64,000 nucleotides of DNA. Origin: Candidatus Nitrosocosmicus agrestis (GTDB taxonomy: Archaea; Thermoproteota; Nitrososphaeria; Nitrososphaerales; Nitrososphaeraceae). Both the position numbers and the translations under genes were made by a program. Shown here in pieces: positions 2,958 through 58,419 of this stretch (the first letter of the stretch is position 1; every line of letters begins with the position of its first letter). The stretch covers positions 1 through 64,000 of the forward strand of contig NZ_VUYS01000002.1 in assembly GCF_008389435.1 (NCBI RefSeq). Direction: 5' to 3'. The notes beneath the pieces were generated by a model. It saw only the letters and a list, made by a program, of their open reading frames with translations, was not told the DNA's origin and ran no database searches.

Positions 2958-3800
2958 GTGAAAAATAAAGGTATTAGCTCCGTAACCATTGTATTATTAG
3001 CATTGGGTGTTCTAATAATTCCTGAAACTGAATTAATGACAAAATTAAACAGTTTTACGTTTGCTCAATCAAACGGCGATAACGACAATGTCATAGGTCA
3101 GGATGGCGATGGTAATGACGCCTCTCAGAGTGATGAGAGTAGTCAAGAAAGTAGTCAAGGGACACAATGTGTGTCTGGAGACGATAATCTTGCAAGCTGT
3201 AACAATTTATCTTCAAATAGTATAGGACTTGGAAAACAAGGTGAAAGGGGACCTCCAGGACCCGCTGGACCTGAAGGACCACAGGGTGAGACTGGCCTAC
3301 CTGGGCCAAAAGGAGATAAGGGCGATACAGGTGATACTGGACCAATGGGACCTGAAGGACCACCAGGACCACAGGGACTGCAAGGAGAGCCCGGTCCTCA
3401 GGGACCTCCAGGTGAAACAGGTATGCAAGGACCTGAAGGTGATACTGGACCACAGGGACCCATAGGTATGACTGGACCTGAAGGACCACCAGGACCCGCT
3501 GGACCTGAAGGACCACCAGGACCCGCATTTGAGCCTCGTATGTATATTGTTCAAAGCGAGATAGAAACTAATCCAGATGGATCAAATTTTGTCATTATTG
3601 AAGTCAGCTGTGAACCTGGAGACATGTTAACTGGTGGATCATCAAGGGCAGACGGCTTTAGTCCAGCATTCAGATTAGTTGCTGACAATGTGATACCTAT
3701 AGATGAGGACACTATCCAAGTTACTGTTGTTGGAGATACCACTAATCCGCAAACCGTGAGAGCACAAGCGTTCGCATATTGTATGGACCTAACTCCATAA
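2958..3800 (+). CDS. secreted collagen-like (Gly-X-Y) repeat protein
   Basis: A 280-residue protein starting at GTG. It has a hydrophobic signal segment at residues 9-22, a low-complexity Asp/Ser/Gln stretch with two cysteines (71 and 81), then 32 uninterrupted Gly-X-Y triplets at residues 95-190, rich in GPP, GPQ and GPE. It ends with a globular domain of about 90 residues that has two cysteines. Prokaryotic collagen-like proteins form triple-helical stalks that present the terminal domain at the cell surface. The C-terminal domain (beta-rich, [15 protein letters not shown]...) resembles the tails of other archaeal and bacterial collagen-like proteins and may act as a trimerisation cap. That role is inference. 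A T-rich stretch (3803-3817) follows the stop and could terminate transcription. Confidence 0.85.
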
Positions 3801-5527: not shown

Positions 5528-7057
5528 CTATTTGACCATTTCCACAATACCCATCATCCCGTAGTCACCATGAAACATCAGATGGCAGTGATACACAGTC
5601 TTTCCCACAAAATCATTAAAAGGTATCCTAATAACCACTTCACCGCCAGTTGGAATAATGACGGTGTCTTGTAATCCCCGAGCTTCATATGGTTTTCCAT
5701 TTACTGAAATTACTTGAAAATCATTCACATGAATATGAAATGGATGAATATTTGTGGTATTTACTCCGTCAAGGTTTACTAACTTCCACTCCTCCACAGT
5801 TCCGACCTTTACTGTTTGATCTACCCTGTTATGATCAAACGTTGCGTTATTAATCTTGTATGTCCATTTGATGTCGTCTGACGAGAAATTAAGGACTCGA
5901 CTATTAGTAATGTTTGCAAGATTCAGGTCATCCTTAGCCCTTAAACTCGTTGGAATGATAGTTGAATTCTCTGCATCCTTCTGATTGCCTTGTATATTTA
6001 TGGTTGCAATGATATTATGGTTCCAAGTGCCGTACGGTTCACCAAATGTGTTATTAAGTGGAATAGACCCGTTACCTGTCGCAGTCACTAGCACATCAAA
6101 CCGCTTTCCAGAAGGAAGAAAAAGAGTATCATTTTTCCATACCTCCCAAACAGGACTTCCATCTTCTGCTATAACATAAAACGTATTACCCGGGAGTTCG
6201 ACCGCGAGTTCATTCTCAGGACCTATGTTTGCAAGACGCCATAACTGAGTCTCTCCCGACGAAATATTAAAGACAGGATTGATTTCTCCATTAACGGTAT
6301 TTCTTTCAGTGCCTGTATTTGTATTGCTTATACTGTGGTGTGTAGTAATGAATGCTTGGTCGAATGGAATATCTCTCATGGCAAAGGTTTGTTTTGTGAT
6401 ATTCTGTAATGGCTCTGGTAATAACTTTTCTAACCCTTCAACAATGAACATGCCAGACAGACCTGCCGAGACTTGTCCATATGAAAGTTGATGAAAATGT
6501 GAATGATACCAATTCGATCCTGGAAGGTGATCCTTTGGAATATTGAGAACATAAAGTTGTGTCTTACCAGGTTCAACATTAAGGAATATGTTATCCGATG
6601 CACTTCCATCAGAATTATTTGTAGGAGACACATGCAATCCATGAAAATGAAGGTTGGTGGACTCATTAAGATTATTTATCAACTCAATTTCAACTCTATC
6701 TCCTGGATAAACATGCAAGCTAGGTCCAGGAATAGAACCATTATAAGCCATAGAAACAATTGACTTGTTGTCAAGGTTTCCTATCAGATAGTCAACTGAA
6801 ATGGCAGTTTTCAAAACTCCGTCTTTGCTGTATACATCTTGAGGCTTTGAATAGTTCATACCGTCCAGAGATGAAGGTTGGTCCCGAAGCAAAGGTTGTG
6901 CAAGTGCTTCGATTTGTGGATTCAAGAATCCATTCCATAGAGAGTTGAAGGTTGAGCTTTGAGGTGCGATTGGAATCATCGCGATCATACAAAGTGAAAA
7001 GAAAGTGAAAATGAAGATTATGTCTCCGTTATTTAATGGTTCTATTTTGTGGATCAC
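5528..7057 (-). CDS. secreted multicopper oxidase
   Basis: A 509-residue copper enzyme with an N-terminal hydrophobic export segment (residues 13-30). All copper-ligand motifs are visible: HFHGLH at 137-142, WYHSHFHQ at 183-190, HPFHIH at 438-443 and HCHLMFHGDYGMM at 490-502. The last provides the type 1 copper Cys491, a His and the axial Met. The enzyme should couple one-electron oxidation of a substrate to four-electron reduction of oxygen to water, outside the membrane. The substrate is unknown. In ammonia oxidisers such enzymes are discussed as copper oxidases, nitrite-reductase-like enzymes or laccases. A second, diverged copy is at 49306. The small secreted protein downstream is in the same operon. 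Confidence 0.92.
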   Translation of the reverse strand: MIHKIEPLNNGDIIFIFTFFSLCMIAMIPIAPQSSTFNSLWNGFLNPQIEALAQPLLRDQPSSLDGMNYSKPQDVYSKDGVLKTAISVDYLIGNLDNKSIVSMAYNGSIPGPSLHVYPGDRVEIELINNLNESTNLHFHGLHVSPTNNSDGSASDNIFLNVEPGKTQLYVLNIPKDHLPGSNWYHSHFHQLSYGQVSAGLSGMFIVEGLEKLLPEPLQNITKQTFAMRDIPFDQAFITTHHSISNTNTGTERNTVNGEINPVFNISSGETQLWRLANIGPENELAVELPGNTFYVIAEDGSPVWEVWKNDTLFLPSGKRFDVLVTATGNGSIPLNNTFGEPYGTWNHNIIATINIQGNQKDAENSTIIPTSLRAKDDLNLANITNSRVLNFSSDDIKWTYKINNATFDHNRVDQTVKVGTVEEWKLVNLDGVNTTNIHPFHIHVNDFQVISVNGKPYEARGLQDTVIIPTGGEVVIRIPFNDFVGKTVYHCHLMFHGDYGMMGIVEMVK

Positions 7058-7490
7058 AGGATGTATACCCCAATTGATTGACCATTTCTAACAATTCCCC
7101 TTAGTTTAAATTCTACATTACAGTCTCTGTAGTTGTAAAAAACTATTATAGTGCTAAAGTACATGAGTAACGCAACCTTATAGTAATTGCTATTTAAGGT
7201 TTATGTTACTAAAGTGGGTAATATAATAATCTTTTAGCATATCTAATTGTGTAGAATATTTTGTTAATAGTCGATTTAAGAAATATTTCGAATTGGAGAC
7301 ATAATTGTTAGAATTATTAGTTTGAAAAACCAAATAATAATCCCACCCCAACGTTTCAGGCAATCAAGGTCTCAATGTATCAGAAGATCATAACATAACA
7401 ACATCGTTTTAGAGTCGATGAAATATTCAGATATTTTTCTTAATATAAATGCATCAACAATTAATTACTATACTGCTCAAATATCGCTCC

Positions 7491-7533
7491 TGTGGGATTA
7501 AGTCCCGTAAGGGTATGAGGGTTAGACCTTGAC
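7491..7533 (+). repeat. dispersed repeat, degenerate module A (gap 7058-7755)
   Basis: Reads TGTGGGATTAAGTCCCGTAA then GGGTATGAGGGTT, a worn copy of the GGGATTAAGTTCC module. The 700-base gap upstream of the oxidase contains nothing else recognisable apart from its promoter region just after 7057. Confidence 0.55.
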
Positions 7534-7755
7534 ATCAAAATCAACCCTTTATAGAATACTAATCGAAAGCAAAATCGGCCTGACAAGACGATTAGTAATT
7601 TTGACTAGAAACGCTTATCACTATTAATCTCTAGTTGCTTCTTTTAGCAAAACTTAAATCAACACATTAACTTCTTTTAATTATAGTTCTATTTAGATTA
7701 ACAAACAATTTTTAAACATCATGTTTTTCTATTATTTGGCAAATAATCGAAGGTA

Positions 7756-11052: not shown

Positions 11053-11221
11053 AGATGTTTATTTTAGTTCAATTATTCTTATATGGTTGAAATTAATAGT
11101 TTCGGGTTCGATTGAGATTTAAAATTAAAATCTTTCGCCAATATTATTCAAACCAATAATGATTCAGATAAATCCAAAATCTCTAGGTATAAGTTTAAGT
11201 CGAATAAGAATTAATGCAACA

Positions 11222-11419
11222 TCAGGTAAAGTACATTTTAGTTTTTATTAGAGAATGAGTGTACGTAACAAAATTATTATTTGTTGATAAATCCACATTA
11301 TTTAGGTTAGAAATTGATTTATGCAGATTCTTTTTTCTTAGAAAAGATAAAAGACAGAGAGGGGAGTCTAAAATATAATGAGGTGTTAAAAAATGGAGCG
11401 CTTGTATGGTAAGGCTCAT
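11222..11419 (-). CDS. tiny ORF coupled to the upstream 98-residue gene (weak)
   Basis: A 65-residue frame whose ATG overlaps the stop of the preceding gene (TAATG). The overlap is the only argument for it. The sequence has no recognisable domain and a random-looking composition. It may be the last, decayed member of the small overlapping gene cluster. Confidence 0.25.
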   Translation of the reverse strand: MSLTIQALHFLTPHYILDSPLCLLSFLRKKNLHKSISNLNNVDLSTNNNFVTYTHSLIKTKMYFT

Positions 11420-11715
11420 TATGTTGTCGGGTTTTTATACGTGGGCTTTTCGTATATCCAAAAGTGTAAACCATTGTTAGGATGATATGTTTCTAGTGGG
11501 TTAGGTTTTGAATTCTCTACCAATATGTAGAATCTATTTCTATCAAACAATTTTTTGATTTGTTTCTTTTGAACCTTTGATATACTACCAGTGTAAAACT
11601 CTAACCCGTCTCCCTTATTCCAGTAAAAGTGTAAATTATATACGTTCTTCTCACCCCCAAGTATTTTAAAAATTTTTCTGGTTAGCTCTATTTGTTGGTT
11701 TTTGGTTATGGTCAT
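11419..11715 (-). CDS. hypothetical protein in overlapping small-gene cluster
   Basis: A 98-residue basic protein with alternating strand and helix (ELTRKIFKILGG, LHFYWNKGDGLEFYTG, KKQIKKLFDRNRFYILVEN, LHFWIYEKP). No family was recognised. Its ATG overlaps the TGA of a 26-codon ORF (ATGA), which in turn overlaps a 52-codon ORF. Such translational coupling of tiny genes is typical of archaeal viruses and integrated elements. Confidence 0.6.
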   Translation of the reverse strand: MTITKNQQIELTRKIFKILGGEKNVYNLHFYWNKGDGLEFYTGSISKVQKKQIKKLFDRNRFYILVENSKPNPLETYHPNNGLHFWIYEKPTYKNPTT

Positions 11716-11792
11716 CTTTCTAGTATCATAGCAATTTGTCTAGCTTGTAATTCAAGTTTCTCGGGTTGTTTGTTGGGGTCGAGGTCGCTCAT
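11712..11792 (-). CDS. 26-residue ORF, translationally coupled
   Basis: Encodes MSDLDPNKQPEKLELQ followed by ARQIAMILER. The ATG overlaps the preceding TGA and its own TGA overlaps the next ATG (ATGA on both sides). It looks like a short amphipathic helix. It is supported only by the double overlap and by its non-random composition. Confidence 0.4.
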   Translation of the reverse strand: MSDLDPNKQPEKLELQARQIAMILER

Positions 11793-11947
11793 GATGATGA
11801 TGATGATGATACTATCCCAACTACTTTAATCATTACCTCTACTATGTGTTTACGTACTTTTTTCCTATATTTGAAATCTTCACAAGAGTACACGCCTGTT
11901 TGAGTGCCTAGCATTGTAACTGCATGTATTTTGTTTTTTCTTGGCAT
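11789..11947 (-). CDS. 52-residue ORF ending in a serine run
   Basis: Encodes MPRKNKIHAVTMLGTQTG then VYSCEDFKYRKKVRKHIVEV, with a C-terminal run of six Ser (TCA repeats) directly before the stop. The product is small and basic. The start lies 4 bases after the stop of an upstream frame (11952-12188). No family was recognised. Confidence 0.45.
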   Translation of the reverse strand: MPRKNKIHAVTMLGTQTGVYSCEDFKYRKKVRKHIVEVMIKVVGIVSSSSSS

Positions 11948-11951
11948 GCTC

Positions 11952-12188
11952 TTAACCTCTTTGGTTTAGGTCTACTCGGGTTATGAAGTCGGATTGTAGG
12001 TATGGGTACACATTCTGTTGTAATCTCAAAATGTTTTAAGCACAGCCTCTTTTGAGTAGCCCAAGAATGTTAAGACATGTTGTTGGTGCTACAAGATAAT
12101 TGAATTTGTTTCCTAGTTTAAACACCTCATGAGTATCTTTTAGGCTATGGGTTAAGATGTAGATGTGAGCATATGTATATGCAAAATC
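11952..12188 (-). pseudogene. start-less, stop-interrupted frame upstream of the small-gene cluster
   Basis: Open after a TAG at 12189. It reads HSLKDTHEVFKLGNKFNYLV, then APTTCLNILGLLKRGCA, a TAA at 12036, and then NILRLQQNVYPYLQSDFITR VDLNQRG to a TAA 4 bases before the next start. The peptide looks protein-like, but there is no start codon and one in-frame stop. It is probably the decayed first gene of the cluster. Confidence 0.4.
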
Positions 12189-12281
12189 CTACCTCCTATC
12201 CTATTACTAATTCATCTGACAAGACTTTATAGAACAAATAAATCAGAAATTCGCTATAAACTAACGGCGACCCAAATTAAT

Positions 12282-12289
12282 TTTAAATA
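12282..12289 (+). promoter_or_regulatory. archaeal TATA box
   Basis: TTTAAATA. Transcription would be expected to begin about 25 bases downstream (around 12312), inside the region where the PsbP-like frame opens. This bears on its start codon. Confidence 0.5.
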
Positions 12290-12301
12290 GTGTGACAATA
12301 A

Positions 12302-12922
12302 TGTGATATCATAATCAACACGATTAGTCAATTAAAAGAATCAAGTATTTTCATTCTATCAGCACTATTAATTACCTCGCTCATTGAAACGTCAAATGTA
12401 GAATCTCAGGAGACAGAATTACAAACATTTAACAATGCAGAATTTAAAGTAAACTATCCTTCGAGCTGGGAAATTGCTCCAACAAATTCAACCTTTCCTT
12501 ATTATGGATCTGATACTTTAGTTGTTTTCAAGCCGATTGGTGAAACAAACCCTCTAAATATTACCTATCTTAATATTTCTCCCCTTCAAGTAGGTACATC
12601 ATTAGACAATACATCCCTAGCAGCATCACGTGATAGTTTAGACAAAATTGTTTCGGAGCAGATTACATTTTTACAAGATCCAGAGTCATTTTATGGTAAC
12701 CTAGATGTTGAAATACTCACAAACAATGCAACAACGGTAGATGGTTTACCTGCAAAAGAATTAACCTATCTTATTCATGGATTAGGAACATTTGATTCTG
12801 AAACAACTGTGATTTATGGAGATAAACAATATCTATTACATTTCACTACACCCATTTCAAATGTTTCAGAAACATTACCTACAGGTCAACAAATAATTAA
12901 GAGCTTTAAGTTTAACTCATAA
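12302..12922 (+). CDS. PsbP-like secreted protein without a canonical start codon
   Basis: The frame is open from 12302 to a TAA at 12920-12922. It encodes a hydrophobic export segment (SIFILSALLITSLIETS) and then a PsbP/SWEI-type domain: FKVNYPSSWEIAPTNS, VVFKPIGE, a central helix and VDGLPAKELTYLI, ending in GQQIIKSFKFNS. Similar small extracytoplasmic proteins are common in Nitrososphaeria. There is no ATG, GTG or TTG before the signal segment. The nearest ATG (12301) is in another frame and reads ATG-TGA. Given the TATA box, a leaderless start at ATA 12311 or ATT 12323 is possible; otherwise the gene has lost its start. Function is unknown. Confidence 0.7.
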   Translation, partial: CDIIINTISQLKESSIFILSALLITSLIETSNVESQETELQTFNNAEFKVNYPSSWEIAPTNSTFPYYGSDTLVVFKPIGETNPLNITYLNISPLQVGTSLDNTSLAASRDSLDKIVSEQITFLQDPESFYGNLDVEILTNNATTVDGLPAKELTYLIHGLGTFDSETTVIYGDKQYLLHFTTPISNVSETLPTGQQIIKSFKFNS

Positions 12923-13025
12923 TTTTTCTACTTTAATACAAAATAAAAGATTGTGTCAAGATATCTTAATAATAAATATTCAAATATTTTTCAATGATTG
13001 AAACTTTCATCTTCAACTTATCAGA

Positions 13026-15196: not shown

Positions 15197-16267
15197 TTGG
15201 ACAAATCTCAAAAAATAATATTCACCTCTCTCATTTCTATATCTGCCATTACATGGCTTTTTTCCATCAAACAGCCAGACATGATGGAGACTATGATGAC
15301 TCTAAACCCAATAGCAGTTTCTATATTTACAATAAGTTGGACTATCGGGATGGCAGCCATGATGTTTCCAGCTATAATTCCAATGGTGTTACTATATAAT
15401 CGCGTAATTTCTAACGATCACAATAATAAGAATAATAAAAATAAAAATAAAAATGACAATTTGTCGATGGTTAGTAAATTCAATCAGCATACAGATATTC
15501 CAGAAAGAAAGGAAAACGGACAAAATGTCAGATCATTTGCACATCTTTCTAATATGGCTATTAAGACATCAGGATTTGTAGGAACATACCTGTTGGTCTG
15601 GGCATCAACGGGTGTTATGTTGCTTGTGTTTTGGTCTATAATTATGAATAATCTGTTAGTAGGATATAGTGTACATGATTTTGCGATTGTGTCGGGATTT
15701 TTGCTCATTGTATCTGGAATTTACCAATTTAGCCCATTGAAGAAGAGATGTTTAGGTTATTGCGAATCACCTTTGTCATTTTTTATGAAAAGATGGAAAG
15801 GAAAACAGTTGAAAGATGGGTTAATGATGGGTCTGTACCACGGGATATACTGTCTTGGATGTTGCTGGCCTTATTTTTTACTTATGGTCTCATTAGGATG
15901 GATGAACTTACTATGGATGGGATTGTTTGCATTAATAATTTTTGCAGAGAAAGTCTGGTCCAGAGGAATTTGGATCGCAAGGGTAACTGGCATTGTGTTT
16001 GTAATAATAGGCATGTTATCAATAACAGGAATGCTATCAATCGCAACAGAAGACGGTGGAATGCACAATTCACAGAATAAAATGAATACAATGATAATGG
16101 AAGGTTCAAATCAAGATAATGATGATAATGGTATGAAAATGGAAGATAATATGGATATGGATATGGATATGGATATGGATATGGATATGGATATGGATAT
16201 GGATATGGATATGGATATGGATATGGATATGGATATGGATATAAGAAATCAGATAAAAAAGGGTTGA
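15197..16267 (+). CDS. DUF2182 membrane protein with (Met-Asp)15 tail
   Basis: A 356-residue integral membrane protein, TTG start, about 6-7 membrane segments. Family motifs are GMAAMMFPAIIPM, YQFSPLKKRCLGYCESP and GLYHGIYCLGCCWPYF, with four conserved-type cysteines near the second half. DUF2182 is annotated as a predicted metal-binding membrane protein. The C-terminus is unusual: a Met/His/Asp-rich stretch (GGMHNSQNKMNTMIMEG, GMKMEDN) leads into 15 exact Met-Asp dipeptides encoded by ATGGAT repeats (16151-16240). Methionine-rich tails often bind copper, but that is inference here. It lies 57 bases after the first DUF1326 gene and probably shares its transcript. Confidence 0.88.
   Translation: MDKSQKIIFTSLISISAITWLFSIKQPDMMETMMTLNPIAVSIFTISWTIGMAAMMFPAIIPMVLLYNRVISNDHNNKNNKNKNKNDNLSMVSKFNQHTDIPERKENGQNVRSFAHLSNMAIKTSGFVGTYLLVWASTGVMLLVFWSIIMNNLLVGYSVHDFAIVSGFLLIVSGIYQFSPLKKRCLGYCESPLSFFMKRWKGKQLKDGLMMGLYHGIYCLGCCWPYFLLMVSLGWMNLLWMGLFALIIFAEKVWSRGIWIARVTGIVFVIIGMLSITGMLSIATEDGGMHNSQNKMNTMIMEGSNQDNDDNGMKMEDNMDMDMDMDMDMDMDMDMDMDMDMDMDMDMDIRNQIKKG
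16151..16240 (+). repeat. 15 x ATGGAT in-frame hexanucleotide repeat
   Basis: Ninety bases of perfect ATGGAT units inside the DUF2182 gene, coding (Met-Asp)15. A perfect tract is prone to slippage. Gain or loss of units stays in frame and changes only tail length. Confidence 0.98.
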
Positions 16268-18164: not shown

Positions 18165-18703
18165 AAGAATTTAAATACATAAAAGTTTATAATATTAAAC
18201 AAATAGGATTTCAATATATTTTTTCATATTTAATAAGATAGTGAATCATATTTGTAATTATGTGATTGAATCTATTAAAATTGATTGTAAGATTTAACCA
18301 AGGTTTTAGATTGAATATGATAAAATTATGAATAACTAAAATAAGAAACTTGGATAGGTAATACCCTATCTGACATTTCATTTATCAACAAGATGAAAAA
18401 TAAGAATGAAGATGTAAAAACTGCCTTTGTAACTCGCCACCTCATATTCAGGTTGCTTGATAATCGAGACCGAGTATACTTTATTGATACTACTCAATAT
18501 TGACTCCCTCATTTAGAATGATGAGACGAGTCGTTTGAAAGCATAGGTATGTAATTACTACTCTATTTGCTTTCTTAATTTCGTATGCCGTGTCAAACAT
18601 CACATTCGCAGTTATAGTAGTCCCCTTAGCATCTTTGCCATAAGTGGTAAGCTTCAAAAGATCATTTAGAATTTTCAGTTTTTAATTATCATGTATACTA
18701 TAC

Positions 18704-18740
18704 GAGTTCGGTGGTAATCATGAAAATATCCACATAGGTT
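18704..18740 (+). repeat. dispersed repeat, module B (gap 18165-19279)
   Basis: GAGTTCGGTGGTAATCATGA is followed by AAATATCCACATAGGTTT. The remainder of the 1.1-kb gap contains no gene that can be supported; a 66-codon minus frame at 19067-19267 is too weak to call. Confidence 0.7.
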
Positions 18741-19279
18741 TAATAAAATAATTTTTTATTTTGATATCATAATCAGTTTGTAATCTATTTGTAATAAGAA
18801 GTAACAAACTTTTAATGCGTGCTCAATGGGATACGATTGGATACGATTTAAGGTTGAACCTAGTCTACCTTAACCTAAAACCACTCATGACAGAATGTAT
18901 TTTCCATCCTAAAGAACAAACAACGTATTTGATTAAGTTTACGTATTAATCTGATGCTTCAATTCAATCTTTTTCTCTCGATCGTTACAAGTTCTAAATA
19001 TTAAAAAACTCTATATATAGTGAATTCTGATTCCTAATTTTTCTTTTTGGAAAAGACATTCAAGTTTTACCATTCCAAATGTTTAATTAAAAACCTTTGG
19101 ATTTTCTCTATAATTACCCCATTATATGCGGTACCAAAAGGAACGGCGACATTTGTTGCATAAGTCATGAGATAGTATATAATCTGTAATATATCAAGTC
19201 TTAGGACAAGGATGTTTATCTCAGAAAAGATAACTATCTTCAAAAACATGCTTAAATATCGGCACAATATATAACTGTC

Positions 19280-19516
19280 ATGCCAAAATTTCTAGATGCT
19301 CATAAAATGGGACAGGTTAGTGAAGATTTGCTCAAACAAGCACAAAATCAACCAAAAGACGAGTTTGGAATAGTACATGAGAACATTCTGTATAATAAAG
19401 AAGAAGATAAGTTGTTTTGTTTGTTGGATGCTCCAGACAAGGAATCTGTAAGAAAACATCATGAGAAACTTGGTATTACTTGTGATTGGATAACCGAAGT
19501 AAAAACTACATCTTAA
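19280..19516 (+). CDS. DUF4242 family protein
   Basis: A 78-residue ferredoxin-like protein of the DUF4242 / SCO4226-type family: PKFLDAHKMGQVSEDLLKQA, then ENILYNKEEDKLFCLLDAPD and VRKHHEKLGITCDWITEV. Members pair beta-alpha-beta units, and one structurally studied bacterial member binds nickel. The role here is unknown. A paralog at 46883 shares more than half its residues. Its ATG lies where the paralog has ATC. Confidence 0.8.
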   Translation: MPKFLDAHKMGQVSEDLLKQAQNQPKDEFGIVHENILYNKEEDKLFCLLDAPDKESVRKHHEKLGITCDWITEVKTTS

Positions 19517-20060
19517 AGATCATAACCACATAAAAGCCATATTGGAATGGATAGTTTTACTAATATGGCGCTAACCTGAATCCAAGTCAATATTATTACC
19601 ATTTTTAGTAACATTTAGTTTGGGCGTATGGGGACTAATAACAAATTGGACTTTAAATGGCCCAATCCTAACGCAAAGTTAGTATGGATACAAACAAAAT
19701 ATGATTGATAGATCGATAACTGTAAGAAAGAATGTCCACTTTCTATAAAAATTATATATCCTCATAAAACACGACATTTTAGAAGTTTGGATCATAGGTG
19801 CATTTCTATATCCACAAATGATTCACAAATCTTTCTATCTTATGCACCAGTTAATATCTGGTATTCATCAGTGACTTTCGAATCTTCCAAGCATGGATAA
19901 GTTCTTGAATGGATATTTTAATATAAACTCAATGCAGAAATTGCTCCAGGAATTAACTATTTTAGCAGTCTAGACCCGTTATTGATAGACATTTTCCGAT
20001 AATTCTTGGTTTTGTCTAATAACATCAAAAATTTTTATATCAATCGACATATTTGAAAAT
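19517..20060. other. intergenic, no gene seen
   Basis: No convincing frame or repeat copy. AT-rich throughout. The last 60 bases should hold the promoter of the gene at 20061. Confidence 0.4.
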
Positions 20061-20366
20061 ATGATCGGGTCCGCAATAACAGTAGATAGCACAAGTGAAT
20101 TACGTGTTATAAGTAGAAAAATAATTCAAGATTCGTTGAAATTATATGCGACAGCTATTGTAAAAGGTCATATCTCCATAAGAGATGGTGGTGAAGGTAA
20201 TTTTGTGTGGAATATTTCTACAAGAGATAATAATGGAACGGTCATTGAACCCGCGGATCGATCTGTTGTAATTGGTGGGATTCCTAAAGAACTGGATGTG
20301 AATCAATTTAGTGTTAGTTCGATGGAAGCCGTGGGTATGTTCGTGACGAAACCGGAGTATCAATAA
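20061..20366 (+). CDS. hypothetical protein, operon with serine-hydrolase-like gene
   Basis: A 101-residue protein without signal peptide or cysteine, beta-rich in its second half (HISIRDGGEGNFVWNISTRD, SVVIGGIPKELDVNQFSVS). Its TAA is directly followed by the ATG of the next gene (TAAATG), so translation is probably coupled. No family was recognised. Its base composition is native (AT-rich), unlike the body of its downstream neighbour. Confidence 0.6.
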   Translation: MIGSAITVDSTSELRVISRKIIQDSLKLYATAIVKGHISIRDGGEGNFVWNISTRDNNGTVIEPADRSVVIGGIPKELDVNQFSVSSMEAVGMFVTKPEYQ

Positions 20367-21596
20367 ATGAAACCCTTTTGCTTAGGCTTTGTGCTGGCAG
20401 CATTCATACTCGTTCCAACTACAGCAATGGGACAAGTTGTGAATATGACTGCAGTAAACAATACGCTTGCGAATTCTACTATGGGTACCAATACAACGAC
20501 GACCAACTCGAAGTGCCCGTCGAACCAGATCGACATAGGCAGCACGTGCACGAGCAAGGCCGAGGTGTCGAAGCAGATCATCTCGATCACGCAGGGCGTC
20601 ATGCAGAAGGAGAACGCCAAGGGGGTGCTTCTGCGCGTTGACGTCGACAACGACACCATCGTCAATGCGGGTCTTGGAGTTTCCCAGGAGGGAGTGCCGG
20701 CGACGCCCGACATGAAGTTCCGTCCCGGCGCCATGGCGATCCCCATGCTCACGACTCTGGTGCTGCAGCTGCAGGAGCAGGGCATGCTCAGCCTCGACGA
20801 TAACCTGTCGAACTGGTTCCCGCAGTACCCGAACGCCGACAATGTGACGCTGCGGATGCTCTCGAGCGTCACCTCCGGCTACCCCGACTACATCCAGGAG
20901 AACCCGCCCTTCCAGGCGGCGCTGCTCGCAGAGCCGTTCCGCCACTGGACGGACGACGAGTTGCTGCAGTATGCGTTCGCACAGCCGATCGTCTGCGACC
21001 CGGGCGCGTGCTTCCACTACGCGCACACCAACTTCATCATCCTCGGTGACGTTGTCGAGAAGATCACCGGTAAGTCGATCACCGAGCTCTTGCAGCAGAA
21101 GTTCCTCGGTCCGCTCGGGCTCACCGAAACGAATATCACGAAGCTCCCGGCCATCCCTTCACCCGCACTCCACGCGTACACGTCGGAGCGCGGTGTCTAC
21201 GAGGAGTCGACGGGATGGAGTCCGTCGTGGGGCCTCGGCGACGGACTCATCATGACGTCGACGCTGCGCGATATGACCACACTCATCAAGGCGGTCGGCA
21301 CTGGCGAGCTGCTCTCTAAGGAGTCAGCAAGCGAGCAGCTCGAGGATCTGTCAAAGGGCCTGCCGGGTGCGCCTGGGCAGATCGGCTACGGACTTGGGAT
21401 CGCCGTCGTCAATGGGTGGGTGTTGCAGAACCCAATCTTCAACGGGTACGAAGGGATTGCCGCGTACCTGCCGTCGCAGCAGATCTCGATCGTGATCGAC
21501 AACACGCACGGCCCGAACGCCACGGAGGGCACGAGCATCGCCACCGACATCTTCAAGGCACTCGCTGCATACCTAGTCCCCACATCGCTACCATAA
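20367..21596 (+). CDS. serine beta-lactamase-like protein, GC-rich and lacking catalytic residues
   Basis: A 409-residue secreted protein of the class C beta-lactamase / D-alanyl-D-alanine carboxypeptidase fold. A signal peptide (residues 1-22) and an Asn/Thr linker are followed by the fold: LVLQLQEQGMLSLDDNLSNW, TSGYPDY, NFIILGDVVEKITG, FLGPLGLTET, GLGDGLIMTSTLRDM, GYGLGIAV. The expected active-site tetrad Ser-x-x-Lys is replaced by AMAIPM (FRPGAMAIPM). The Tyr-x-Asn motif reads YAH, and the Lys/His-x-Gly motif reads NGY. It should therefore be a pseudoenzyme, perhaps a binding protein. The first 45 or so codons are AT-rich, while 20510-21580 is strongly GC-rich with G/C third positions, pointing to transfer from a high-GC donor. 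Confidence 0.85.
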   Translation: MKPFCLGFVLAAFILVPTTAMGQVVNMTAVNNTLANSTMGTNTTTTNSKCPSNQIDIGSTCTSKAEVSKQIISITQGVMQKENAKGVLLRVDVDNDTIVNAGLGVSQEGVPATPDMKFRPGAMAIPMLTTLVLQLQEQGMLSLDDNLSNWFPQYPNADNVTLRMLSSVTSGYPDYIQENPPFQAALLAEPFRHWTDDELLQYAFAQPIVCDPGACFHYAHTNFIILGDVVEKITGKSITELLQQKFLGPLGLTETNITKLPAIPSPALHAYTSERGVYEESTGWSPSWGLGDGLIMTSTLRDMTTLIKAVGTGELLSKESASEQLEDLSKGLPGAPGQIGYGLGIAVVNGWVLQNPIFNGYEGIAAYLPSQQISIVIDNTHGPNATEGTSIATDIFKALAAYLVPTSLP

Positions 21597-21598
21597 AT

Positions 21599-21634
21599 AG
21601 CAGCTGGTTAGGTGGTATGTGAAACAAAGTTGAC
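21599..21634 (+). repeat. dispersed repeat, A/C fusion copy (gap 21597-22129)
   Basis: AGCAGCTGGTTAGGTGGTAT then GTGAAACAAAGTTGAC, starting 3 bases after the stop of the GC-rich gene. This places the foreign segment directly against a repeat boundary. No other gene is seen in the gap. Confidence 0.85.
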
Positions 21635-22129
21635 GCATTTTTGTCACCCAGGTCTATTATAACAGGGATGCAAAAGGATGAAAATTATGAGAGATTCATT
21701 TAGATGCAGGATTCGTTCAGATTTTAATGACATGTCTTGGGGCTATTCATTCAGTTATTGAAAACTATATCATATTAAAACATCTTCTATAGTTTAGAAC
21801 CGAAGTGAAGAGTGTGGATATTATACCATTTTATTGTAAAAACATATTTTGAATATTCTTTGTTTCCTTCAATAACTGGGTCTCTGCAATATGATTTCAT
21901 ACACATCAGATTTCATGATGTCATTAAAGAGTATTAAGACCGACTGAATCTTATAACTACCTAGTTTATTAAAAATAATTCATATTATCATAAAAATTAT
22001 GTTACACGCTAAGTTATCATTACTTGGTATATCGATTGTATGACGTTAATGGAGAACATATATCTTACTTTGACCATAGCAATAAATAAATACCAGATAA
22101 CTCGTCCTGAGTCATATTTGATATTTAAA

Positions 22130-23368
22130 ATGCGTAATGATAGTTTTCGACCAAATATATTAATCATGATTATTTCGATACTACTTTTTGCTAACTCTTT
22201 TAGTGTGGCGATGGCCAAATCAATATCTAACGAGACTAACGGTTCAAAGTTATTGGACGTTAGTAAAACCGATACAATAAAAGTTACGAATGTCGATGAT
22301 AAACTCGAACCTGCTATTAAAGAGTTCATTATTAATAAGGTATTAAACAAGTCAAAAAGCTCAATGGTGATAGGATTTATCGATCCTAATGGGACAAAAG
22401 TTTATAGTTTCGGTAATATCTCTGACACTAATAATGCACCTGTAGATGGAAATACTATTTACGATATTGATTCGCTCACAAAGACATTTACTACATTAGC
22501 GTTGGCAAACATGGTCAAAGATGGAATAGTGAATCTTGACGACCCGATAGAAAAATTCCTACCTACGAATGTATCTGCTCCTCAATTCAATGGATTTGAT
22601 ATTACGTTGGCCGATTTAGCTACACATACATCAGGCCTTCCTTATATGCCTTCAAACATATGGGTGAATGAAACTGCTGGAGAAATTAATTCTGCTTATA
22701 GTATCTCCGATCTATATGAAGGGTTGTCAAATACCACACTTCTTTCAAAACCAGGTACAAAATTTCTGTATTCTGATTTCGGAATGGGATTACTGGGACA
22801 GATTCTAATTCATATAGAAGGTGAAGGGACTACATATGAACAGCTTGTTAAAAATAGGATCTTGAATGTTTTGGGAATGAACGATACCAAAATTAGTCTA
22901 TCAGAAGACGAATTATTGAATAGACTCCCAGATGGTCATCTCAATGGTTCCACGGTTTTAACTCCAAAGATTCCCGATTCTATAGCAGCTGCAGGAGCCT
23001 TTCATTCGACTACTAACGATATGCTGAAATATCTTGCAGCAAACATGGGTCTTTTACACACTAGCCTAGACGATTCCATACATCTACAGCACCTTATTCG
23101 TCACTCTGTGCAAATGCAAAATCCCTTGAATTATTACGAATATGTAGCCTTGGGATGGGGGATACTTTCAAATTTGAGTATTGAACTTCTTAACCACCAG
23201 GGATCATTCTTAGGATGGAATTCCTTCATCGGGTTTATTCCATCGGAACAGAAGGGAATAGTAATTCTTTGCAGTTGCGATAAATCTGATGTAAATACAA
23301 AAAGTCTAGGAATAGTATTGCTGGGTTTGTCGGAGCCTAGTTTATTGACGAGTCCAAAAAACAAGTAA
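22130..23368 (+). CDS. secreted serine hydrolase (class C beta-lactamase / transpeptidase fold)
   Basis: A protein of 412 residues from the ATG at 22130, chosen because a signal peptide (MRNDSFRPNILIMIISILLF) begins there. The frame extends upstream to an ATG at 22040. The active-site motifs are intact: SLTK in IDSLTKTFTTLAL, YSD in KFLYSDFGMGLLG (Tyr-x-Asn position) and HQG in LNHQGSFLGW. HTSGLPY and DAAGAF-like SIAAAGAFHSTTNDM also fit. It probably hydrolyses a peptide, ester or amide bond at the cell surface. Archaea lack murein, so the substrate is unknown. It has normal AT-rich composition, unlike the related upstream gene. Confidence 0.87.
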   Translation: MRNDSFRPNILIMIISILLFANSFSVAMAKSISNETNGSKLLDVSKTDTIKVTNVDDKLEPAIKEFIINKVLNKSKSSMVIGFIDPNGTKVYSFGNISDTNNAPVDGNTIYDIDSLTKTFTTLALANMVKDGIVNLDDPIEKFLPTNVSAPQFNGFDITLADLATHTSGLPYMPSNIWVNETAGEINSAYSISDLYEGLSNTTLLSKPGTKFLYSDFGMGLLGQILIHIEGEGTTYEQLVKNRILNVLGMNDTKISLSEDELLNRLPDGHLNGSTVLTPKIPDSIAAAGAFHSTTNDMLKYLAANMGLLHTSLDDSIHLQHLIRHSVQMQNPLNYYEYVALGWGILSNLSIELLNHQGSFLGWNSFIGFIPSEQKGIVILCSCDKSDVNTKSLGIVLLGLSEPSLLTSPKNK

Positions 23369-56847: not shown

Positions 56848-58419
56848 TTAAGGACTTTTTTTTGATTTTTTTCTTCCATCAGGCTCTGGTTTTACTTCCC
56901 CATCAGGCTCTGGTTTTACTTCCCCATCAGGCTCTGGTTTTACTTCCCCATCAGGCTCTGGTTTTACTTCCCCATCAGGCTCTGGTTTTACTTCCCCATC
57001 AGGCTCTGGTTTTACTTCCCCATCAGGCTCTGGTTTTACTTCCCCATCAGGCTCTGGTTTTACTTCCCCATCAGGCTCTGGTTTTACTTCCCCATCAGGC
57101 TCTGGTTTTACTTCCCCATCAGGCTCTGGTTTTACTTCCCCATCAGGCTCTGGTTTTATACCTAACCTAGAATTTGCAAATTTAATCAATGCACGTATTA
57201 CCTCATCCGTTATTAATCCAACCGCTAAACTGATTACCGATATAGTATACACGGCATTATAGTTACCAAGTCCGATTATAGTAACCAGAAAATACATCGC
57301 GACTGCTAAGACAGGGGCCAAAAACAGCAATGATAAATCTTCTAACGACTGATAAAAGGACTGGACGTGAGATTTCTTGTGGAAGGTGATTTTGTTTAGT
57401 CGGGTTTTAATAGTTTCAGTTTTTCCATTTTCAAATTCATCTCTTATCTTTTTGATCCTATTTGATGTTTCATACAAAAATCTTAGATATCCACCGATCA
57501 TGCCAAATATGATCACATACAAAGGAATCTGAATACCAGTAGCATAACCCGAACGAAAATCACCACCTATGTTAAACATCCATTCACCACCATCGTGTTT
57601 AACAGATCCTCCTGGAATTCCTTTCTGAACCAATCCTACCGGAGCACCAGAACCAAAAGGTTGATCTACGAATGCAAATCCAAAAAGTATAGGCATAACC
57701 ATTCCAGTTATGAATACAAATCTAAGTACTTCTGTTGCAATAGTACTAGATAATAGAGTAATGGAAAGAATAAGTCCAATGAATGACAGAAATGCAATAA
57801 GCATTATGTAGAAAGGTCTAGTTTCGAAGAATTCCGTAATATTAACGGTTGTCTCCGACTTTATTAGAGGTGAAGTGTTATCTATGTTCGTTCCTACAAG
57901 GGTCCCCTGAATTCGATAATCTCCCCTCTTTTCAAATATAGCTCCAAAGTTGTCATCATAAATTCCTGAAGTATGGAAAGATTTATCAATGATCACATTT
58001 TTTTCACCATAAATTTCAGATACTTTAATGTTAACAAACGCGTCAGCAGGACACCCTTGTTTATCAAATACGAATGTAAATATTCTTACGAATTGCCCTG
58101 GCGTATACCGTGTTTTTTCCGTGTCTATTGTCAGGGTTTCTGGTATGGCTGTGGTATTTGCAAACTTCTTGATGCTGCAGGAATTTGATATTTCGCTAAA
58201 TCCCACACTCGACTCATCGTTTTTAGGCACCTTGGTACCATCGAGAGTATTTTGTGGAGAACCTTCCGATGTTTTATTGGGTGAAGATGAATCTGAAACA
58301 TTTGACTCATCTGTGTCCGAATTGCTGTATGAATAATAGTTTTCCTGAGAAAATACCAGGCCAGTGTTACCAATGACAAATGATGTTAACATAATGATAC
58401 TGGTGGAAAAATAACACAA
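56848..58419 (-). CDS. membrane protein with Ig-like ectodomain and 12 KPEPDGEV repeats
   Basis: A 523-residue protein. Signal segment at residues 6-24, a Ser/Asp-rich linker, and an Ig-like extracellular domain (TLTIDTEKTRYTPGQFVRIF TFVFDK ... VNIKVSEIYGEKNVIIDKSF) as used for macroglobulin-like adhesion domains. About five membrane helices lie between residues 205 and 420. A cytoplasmic-looking basic loop (RIKKIRDEFENGKTETIKTR) sits between helices. After the last helix the tail consists of 12 copies of an 8-residue unit K-P-E-P-D-G-E-V and ends RKKSKKSP. The tail is extended and acidic. No enzyme motif is present; a wall-anchoring or sensing role is inference. Confidence 0.82.
   Translation of the reverse strand: MCYFSTSIIMLTSFVIGNTGLVFSQENYYSYSNSDTDESNVSDSSSPNKTSEGSPQNTLDGTKVPKNDESSVGFSEISNSCSIKKFANTTAIPETLTIDTEKTRYTPGQFVRIFTFVFDKQGCPADAFVNIKVSEIYGEKNVIIDKSFHTSGIYDDNFGAIFEKRGDYRIQGTLVGTNIDNTSPLIKSETTVNITEFFETRPFYIMLIAFLSFIGLILSITLLSSTIATEVLRFVFITGMVMPILFGFAFVDQPFGSGAPVGLVQKGIPGGSVKHDGGEWMFNIGGDFRSGYATGIQIPLYVIIFGMIGGYLRFLYETSNRIKKIRDEFENGKTETIKTRLNKITFHKKSHVQSFYQSLEDLSLLFLAPVLAVAMYFLVTIIGLGNYNAVYTISVISLAVGLITDEVIRALIKFANSRLGIKPEPDGEVKPEPDGEVKPEPDGEVKPEPDGEVKPEPDGEVKPEPDGEVKPEPDGEVKPEPDGEVKPEPDGEVKPEPDGEVKPEPDGEVKPEPDGRKKSKKSP
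56877..57164 (-). repeat. 12 x 24-bp tandem repeat inside the membrane protein gene
   Basis: The 24-base unit CATCAGGCTCTGGTTTTACT TCCC (+ strand) occurs 12 times with virtually no sequence difference, coding KPEPDGEV on the minus strand. Near-identity of all units at DNA level points to recent expansion or ongoing homogenisation. Confidence 0.97.

Follow-up and report, generated by a model that had tools for sequence, protein, structure and literature searches.

An actinobacterial S12-fold domain without catalytic motifs, joined to an archaeal leader in a tRNA-Lys-associated site array of Candidatus Nitrosocosmicus agrestis

The window, the whole stretch of DNA analysed here, comprises 64,000 nucleotides (G000:C28:1-64000) of a genome of Candidatus Nitrosocosmicus agrestis, an ammonia-oxidising archaeon of soil; the genome measures 3.22 Mb in 43 contigs, with Candidatus Nitrosocosmicus genomes as its relatives. 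Its main feature is an open reading frame that begins in AT-rich DNA, turns GC-rich within the frame and ends at a return to AT-rich sequence (Table 1). A two-breakpoint likelihood fit delimits the GC-rich stretch as 20497-21592 (log-likelihood gain 126.5), with a GC content of 0.341 before, 0.622 inside and 0.308 after the breakpoints. The first switch lies inside the reading frame and the second at its last codon, and the frame is open throughout its 409 residues. The two switches, the first of them put near 20510, and the open frame had been noticed in an earlier, sequence-only reading of this DNA. That reading had delimited the feature as 20367-21634; the start stands but the end does not, since the frame stops at 21596 and the stretch up to 21634 includes a repeat.

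The AT-rich leader is common to all six Nitrosocosmicus genomes whose leader was aligned, seven genomes carrying the unit when the window is included. The copy of another genus (G001, locus L087) has an unrelated leader and sequence in common with the window only from 20497 on, so the leader junction seen through this copy is the very base of the GC breakpoint, in keeping with the earlier proposal of an AT-rich host leader fused in frame. The 3′ ends of the archaeal copies diverge from about 21574. Among these copies, one GC-rich core is joined to two leaders and several 3′ ends. Actinobacterial homology begins at residue 49-50, so what was captured is the mature domain, whose signal peptide was exchanged. 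With its foreign origin and its junctions shown, the gene is best explained as a capture between domains of life that is exact to the ends of the protein domain. The hydrophobic leader suggests that the mosaic protein is exported. A frame-shifted copy of the gene was observed in L088 (G016, reverse complement of 6373-7662), representing either real decay or an assembly error.

Table 1. Coordinates of features at and around the mosaic gene (window positions; residue numbers refer to the mosaic protein)
Feature	Position	Strand	Remarks
Block A, second shared unit	11104..13013		Before the gene unit in some genomes, after it in others
Left end of putative mobile unit	18693..18831	+	Joined directly to 19631 in five other genomes; adjoins an att-like site in four of these
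Insertion of about 800 bp with small ORF (MPKFLDAHKMGQV...)	18832..19630		Splits the unit in the window genome only
Main part of putative mobile unit	19631..21615	+	5′ AT-rich flank, ORF1, mosaic gene, site
ORF1, upstream passenger	20061..20366	+	101 aa; position conserved in 7 genomes; ends directly before the mosaic-gene ATG
Mosaic S12-fold ORF, predicted secreted	20367..21596	+	409 aa; PF00144 1.5e-43; matches in 9/70 family genomes
AT-rich archaeal leader	20367..20496	+	Signal-peptide-like stretch and Asn/Thr linker; ends at GC breakpoint; common to aligned Nitrosocosmicus copies
GC-rich captured actinobacterial mature domain	20497..21592	+	Actinobacterial homology from residue 49-50
S-x-x-K position, A122-M-A-I125	20730..20741	+	Lys in 0/29 clade rows, 19/19 canonical relatives
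Y-x-N position, Y218-A-H220	21018..21026	+	His in 28/29 clade rows; Asn in 15/19 canonical relatives
H-x-G position, Q354-N-P356	21426..21434	+	Gln in 26/29 and Pro in 29/29 clade rows; His and Gly both in 19/19 canonical relatives
att-like repeat over stop codon	21585..21634	+	Hairpin arms around stop, core GGTTAGGTGG, then TATGTGAAACAAA module; array member
Neighbouring AT-rich S12 protein	22040..23368	+	Intact S-L-T-K and H-Q-G; contrast, outside the mobile unit

Several other features of the window were observed, namely a tandem repeat of about 72 bp with copies 96-99% identical (56868-57158), a protein with collagen-like Gly-x-Pro repeats and a secretory-like leader (2958-3800), and a membrane-like, multi-pass ORF whose end is a long Met-Asp repeat (15197-16267), flanked by two related ORFs, each of about 213 aa (14499 and 16358). 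A protein related to the neighbouring S12 protein occurs nearby, in the opposite orientation, in G007.

The mosaic protein matches the PF00144 / MEROPS S12 profile with 149.7 bits against a cut-off of 27. Foldseek gives 1hvb as the best match (E 2.1e-17, prob 1.00, TM 0.66) for a query that is a moderate AlphaFold model, of mean pLDDT 75.5 and low pLDDT in the pocket loops. Among solved structures, its closest relatives are R61-type DD-peptidases and D-stereospecific hydrolases rather than the class C beta-lactamases proposed earlier, and the NCBIfam bla_class_C profile yields 40.3 bits against a cut-off of 415, which places the protein outside that class. With the Streptomyces R61 DD-peptidase and the D-stereospecific amidohydrolase (S12, PF00144) it has in common the fold, the overall alignment, the Tyr of Y-x-N and the C-terminal (P/N)GY region, but it differs from them in having no Ser/Lys pair, Y-x-H for Y-x-N and Q-N-P for H-x-G.

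Catalytic S12 proteins and DD-peptidases carry S-x-x-K, Y-x-N and H/K-x-G where the window protein has AMAI, YAH and QNP. The first two replacements had been recognised from the sequence, but the third had been sought in NGY (359-361), the counterpart of the (P)GY that comes next in the alignment of active relatives. The replaced active site is common to a 36-member, mostly actinobacterial clade, of which 29 rows (1 archaeal, 28 actinobacterial) were counted against 19 canonical relatives (Table 1). Replacements fixed across the clade are K125I, N220H, H354Q, G356P and N380T, residues R275, E279 and W351 are invariant in this clade only, and Tyr218 is kept in 28/29 rows. The Ser position is occupied by S, A, N or Q across the clade and by S or A even within its archaeal part, meaning that the nucleophile is not conserved. 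Because the motif replacements run throughout the clade, the loss of the catalytic motifs is old, concerted and conserved, which is not the pattern of decay. Active-site loss predates the transfer, which did not cause it, and is fixed in a whole sub-family of actinobacterial proteins. Proteins of the same clade, such as those of Patulibacter and of a Streptomyces sp. NBC_01001 plasmid (WP_331747208.1), have the same replaced motifs but differ in their bacterial signal peptides, their GC content (mostly 0.63-0.76) and their bacterial contexts; their record name, “serine hydrolase domain-containing”, implies an activity that the motifs of the clade do not support. Class C-like sequences that lack active-site residues have been noted in a few cases from Streptomyces and mostly ascribed to truncation (PMC6273383).

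Purifying selection acts on the captured domain within archaea. Among archaeal copies, dN/dS of the core in pairwise comparison ranges from 0.08 to 0.49 (mostly 0.1-0.3), nonsynonymous changes number 84 of 220 where the mutation spectrum at 4-fold sites predicts 146 (P=1e-17), and no stops occur among the 220 changes (P=1.4e-4), which bears out the earlier supposition that the gene is retained by selection. ORF1, carried on the same mobile unit, evolves nearly neutrally (pN/pS 0.88) and so provides an internal near-neutral control for the selection test.

In the absence of a nucleophile/general-base pair, the protein most likely works by binding a ligand, and its origin in a motif-less sub-family together with its retention by selection makes it probable that it binds rather than cuts. 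A re-invented active site, by which it would still be an enzyme, for example a hydrolase or transferase based on Tyr218/His220, is rather unlikely. The pair is conserved (each residue in 28/29 rows) and could support other chemistry, E279, R275 and Q354 show little or no variation within the clade, and the purifying selection on the domain is strong; against this stand the variable Ser position, even within one archaeal clade, and the lack of Lys or any other general base at position 125. No S12 enzyme is known to function in the absence of both a Ser nucleophile and a general base.

Still less probable, indeed hardly tenable, is the notion of a decaying remnant of a foreign enzyme that lost its motifs after transfer. 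The patchy presence of the gene, found in 8/15 genomes of the genus, the frame-shifted G016 copy and the AT-directed drift at silent sites would all suit such a remnant, but the actinobacterial clade has the same motif replacements, which predate the transfer, and the prevailing dN/dS values and the absence of stops do not resemble decay. Post-transfer decay was rejected on the strength of these actinobacterial relatives and of the purifying selection on the core.

The origin of the domain was traced by a scan of 84,980 species genomes, in which five archaeal copies were found and all other matches were actinobacterial, with identities of 71% for an Acidimicrobiia metagenome-assembled genome (MAG), 55% for Patulibacter and 33-48% for Solirubrobacterales and others. 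Further family members came from Thermoleophilia, Acidimicrobiia and Actinomycetota samples, and a search of the organism's own family gave matches in 9/70 genomes. In a maximum-likelihood tree of 58 proteins, the archaeal copies (8/8 of those placed) form one clade with 100/100 support, nested in actinobacteria; its sister is the copy of the G+C-rich Acidimicrobiia MAG, followed by Patulibacter. The foreign, high-GC origin proposed earlier thus holds, the closest non-archaeal homologs being actinobacterial and belonging to the clade without the SxxK Lys. The captured domain retains a GC content of 0.62 against 0.33 in its flanks. The closest actinobacterial copy has a GC3 of 0.93 and the archaeal copies one of 0.92-0.78, and at 4-fold sites 54 GC to AT changes stand against 2 in the reverse direction; both trends are what a foreign gene should show while it adjusts to an AT-rich host. 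At the closest actinobacterial locus, a single one, the gene has a second family member on one side and an M23 peptidoglycan peptidase on the other, and the three share a strand.

Derivation from an actinophage tail protein (phrog_382, Bxb1 gp30 type) is very improbable. PHROG 382 is matched with E=6.5e-59, a Bxb1 tail protein appears among the structural matches, and mycobacteriophage minor tail proteins with a D-Ala-D-Ala carboxypeptidase domain have the S12 fold and the actinobacterial sphere in common with the window protein. However, they are only 27-29% identical to it, the three examined keep S-x-x-K, Y-x-N and H-x-G, and no relative of the mosaic protein was found in viral_contigs; a phage origin was rejected on these motifs and on this search. 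Contamination during assembly or binning, to which a GC of 0.62 in a 0.33 background and a genome fragmented into 43 contigs might point, has a negligible probability and was rejected, as three single-contig genomes (G006, G007 and G008) carry the gene with the identical junction within the same AT-rich unit.

The mosaic gene forms part of a larger unit with 88-94% nucleotide identity in six other Nitrosocosmicus genomes, in which the flanks differ. The unit is uninterrupted at the insertion point of the window genome in L081, L082, L084, L085 and L088. Synonymous divergence of the core is low (dS 0.095-0.42) compared with rpoB, whose synonymous sites are mostly saturated and whose dN goes up to 0.05, and the trees of the gene and of rpoB (the latter built by FastTree) disagree; together these show that the unit has spread between Nitrosocosmicus species. 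Vertical inheritance since the genus ancestor, suggested by the similar identity of neighbouring blocks, was rejected, given rpoB synonymous saturation against a core dS of 0.1-0.4.

The repeat reported as dispersed after the stop codon is real, and proves to belong to a localised, same-orientation family derived from the tRNA-Lys 3′ end. Read as their reverse complement, the 3′-terminal 17 nt of tRNA-Lys(CTT) are identical to its consensus core, GCGGGTTCGGTGGGATT; the copy in the window is degenerate. In a survey of about 1.4 Mb, the sites cluster around the gene in the window genome (G000) and in G006, G007 and G008, are nearly absent from 400 kb sampled elsewhere, and share one orientation in 61/63 cases. 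An intact tRNA-Lys(CTT) is located beyond the array in 4/4 of these genomes; in G000 the array spans C28 2489-88742 (window part 2489-61281) and the tRNA gene lies at C28:132265-132354. Ends of shared segments fall within 60 bp of a site in 31/276 cases against 8.3 expected, a value never reached in 1000 shifts, and orientation is kept in 65/69 segments common to arrays. Segments shuffle between genomes at the tRNA-Lys-derived sites. A tyrosine recombinase adjoins tRNA-Lys in G000 and G007, and none was detected beside this tRNA in G006 or G008; mobility would presumably be driven by this type of enzyme. We read the array as a probable accretion of tRNA-targeted elements or cassettes. Elsewhere in G000, a recombinase of the same sub-family (L212, C12:80547-81997) was observed downstream of a tRNA-Arg(TCG) gene with a 3′ end similar to the site core, which suggests that related integrases may target different tRNAs.

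Two known systems resemble this arrangement. Thaumarchaeal tRNA-targeted integrated elements likewise combine a tyrosine recombinase with attachment at a tRNA 3′ end and re-use of one site (Krupovic et al., 2019; PMC6563490), but here many remnant sites (9-27) lie in one orientation and the units are small and without their own integrase. Archaeal integrons also consist of same-orientation units between recombination sites and capture foreign genes (Ghaly et al., 2022; PMC9668308), whereas the anchor here is a tRNA-Lys gene and the sites resemble tRNA-derived att sites. Nitrosocosmicus is not mentioned in the portions consulted of either paper. An integron is recognised by attC sites, with inverted R and L boxes and a single-strand fold, and by an IntI-specific domain; despite the same-orientation sites, shuffled order and stop-codon adjacency, this assignment was set aside, because the recombinase-adjacent site is the tRNA-Lys gene. 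No description of the pseudoenzyme sub-family or of Nitrosocosmicus site arrays was found in open-licence papers.

Taken together, these observations make it likely that the locus holds the captured domain of an actinobacterial S12 pseudoenzyme, provided with an archaeal leader, carried on an att-flanked mobile unit and acting as a secreted, non-acylating binder. In the proposed mechanism, the mature domain would have been fused to an archaeal export leader and the fusion taken up in a small unit with tRNA-Lys-derived att-like sites at its ends. This unit may be excised as a circle with a tRNA-derived GGGTTCGGTGG junction, and its movement between Nitrosocosmicus species would have been driven by a recombinase. 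Once exported, the protein, of DD-peptidase-like fold and without a nucleophile/general-base pair, would bind its ligand in a remodelled pocket in which Tyr218 was kept and His220, Gln354 and Pro356 were gained. From this we infer non-catalytic binding, and favour as ligand a D-amino-acid or peptidoglycan-like peptide, or a partner hydrolase. Peptidoglycan is not known in Thaumarchaeota, which bears on the nature of the ligand in the new host.

The locus represents a clean bacterium-to-archaeon transfer with readable junctions, ongoing amelioration of base composition and a likely vehicle in the tRNA-Lys-anchored site array. Furthermore, the “serine hydrolase” annotation in many actinobacteria covers a clade without catalytic residues, the function of which can be tested in bacteria. 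More speculatively, and with considerable doubt, the fixed replacements in the actinobacterial sub-family might have turned its DD-peptidase pocket into a receptor or partner-regulator that deals with cell-wall peptides without acylation, perhaps as a partner of the M23 peptidase next to it, and soil archaea might have captured this module at its domain ends and spread it via a tRNA-anchored, cassette-like array in order to sense or bind their bacterial neighbours.
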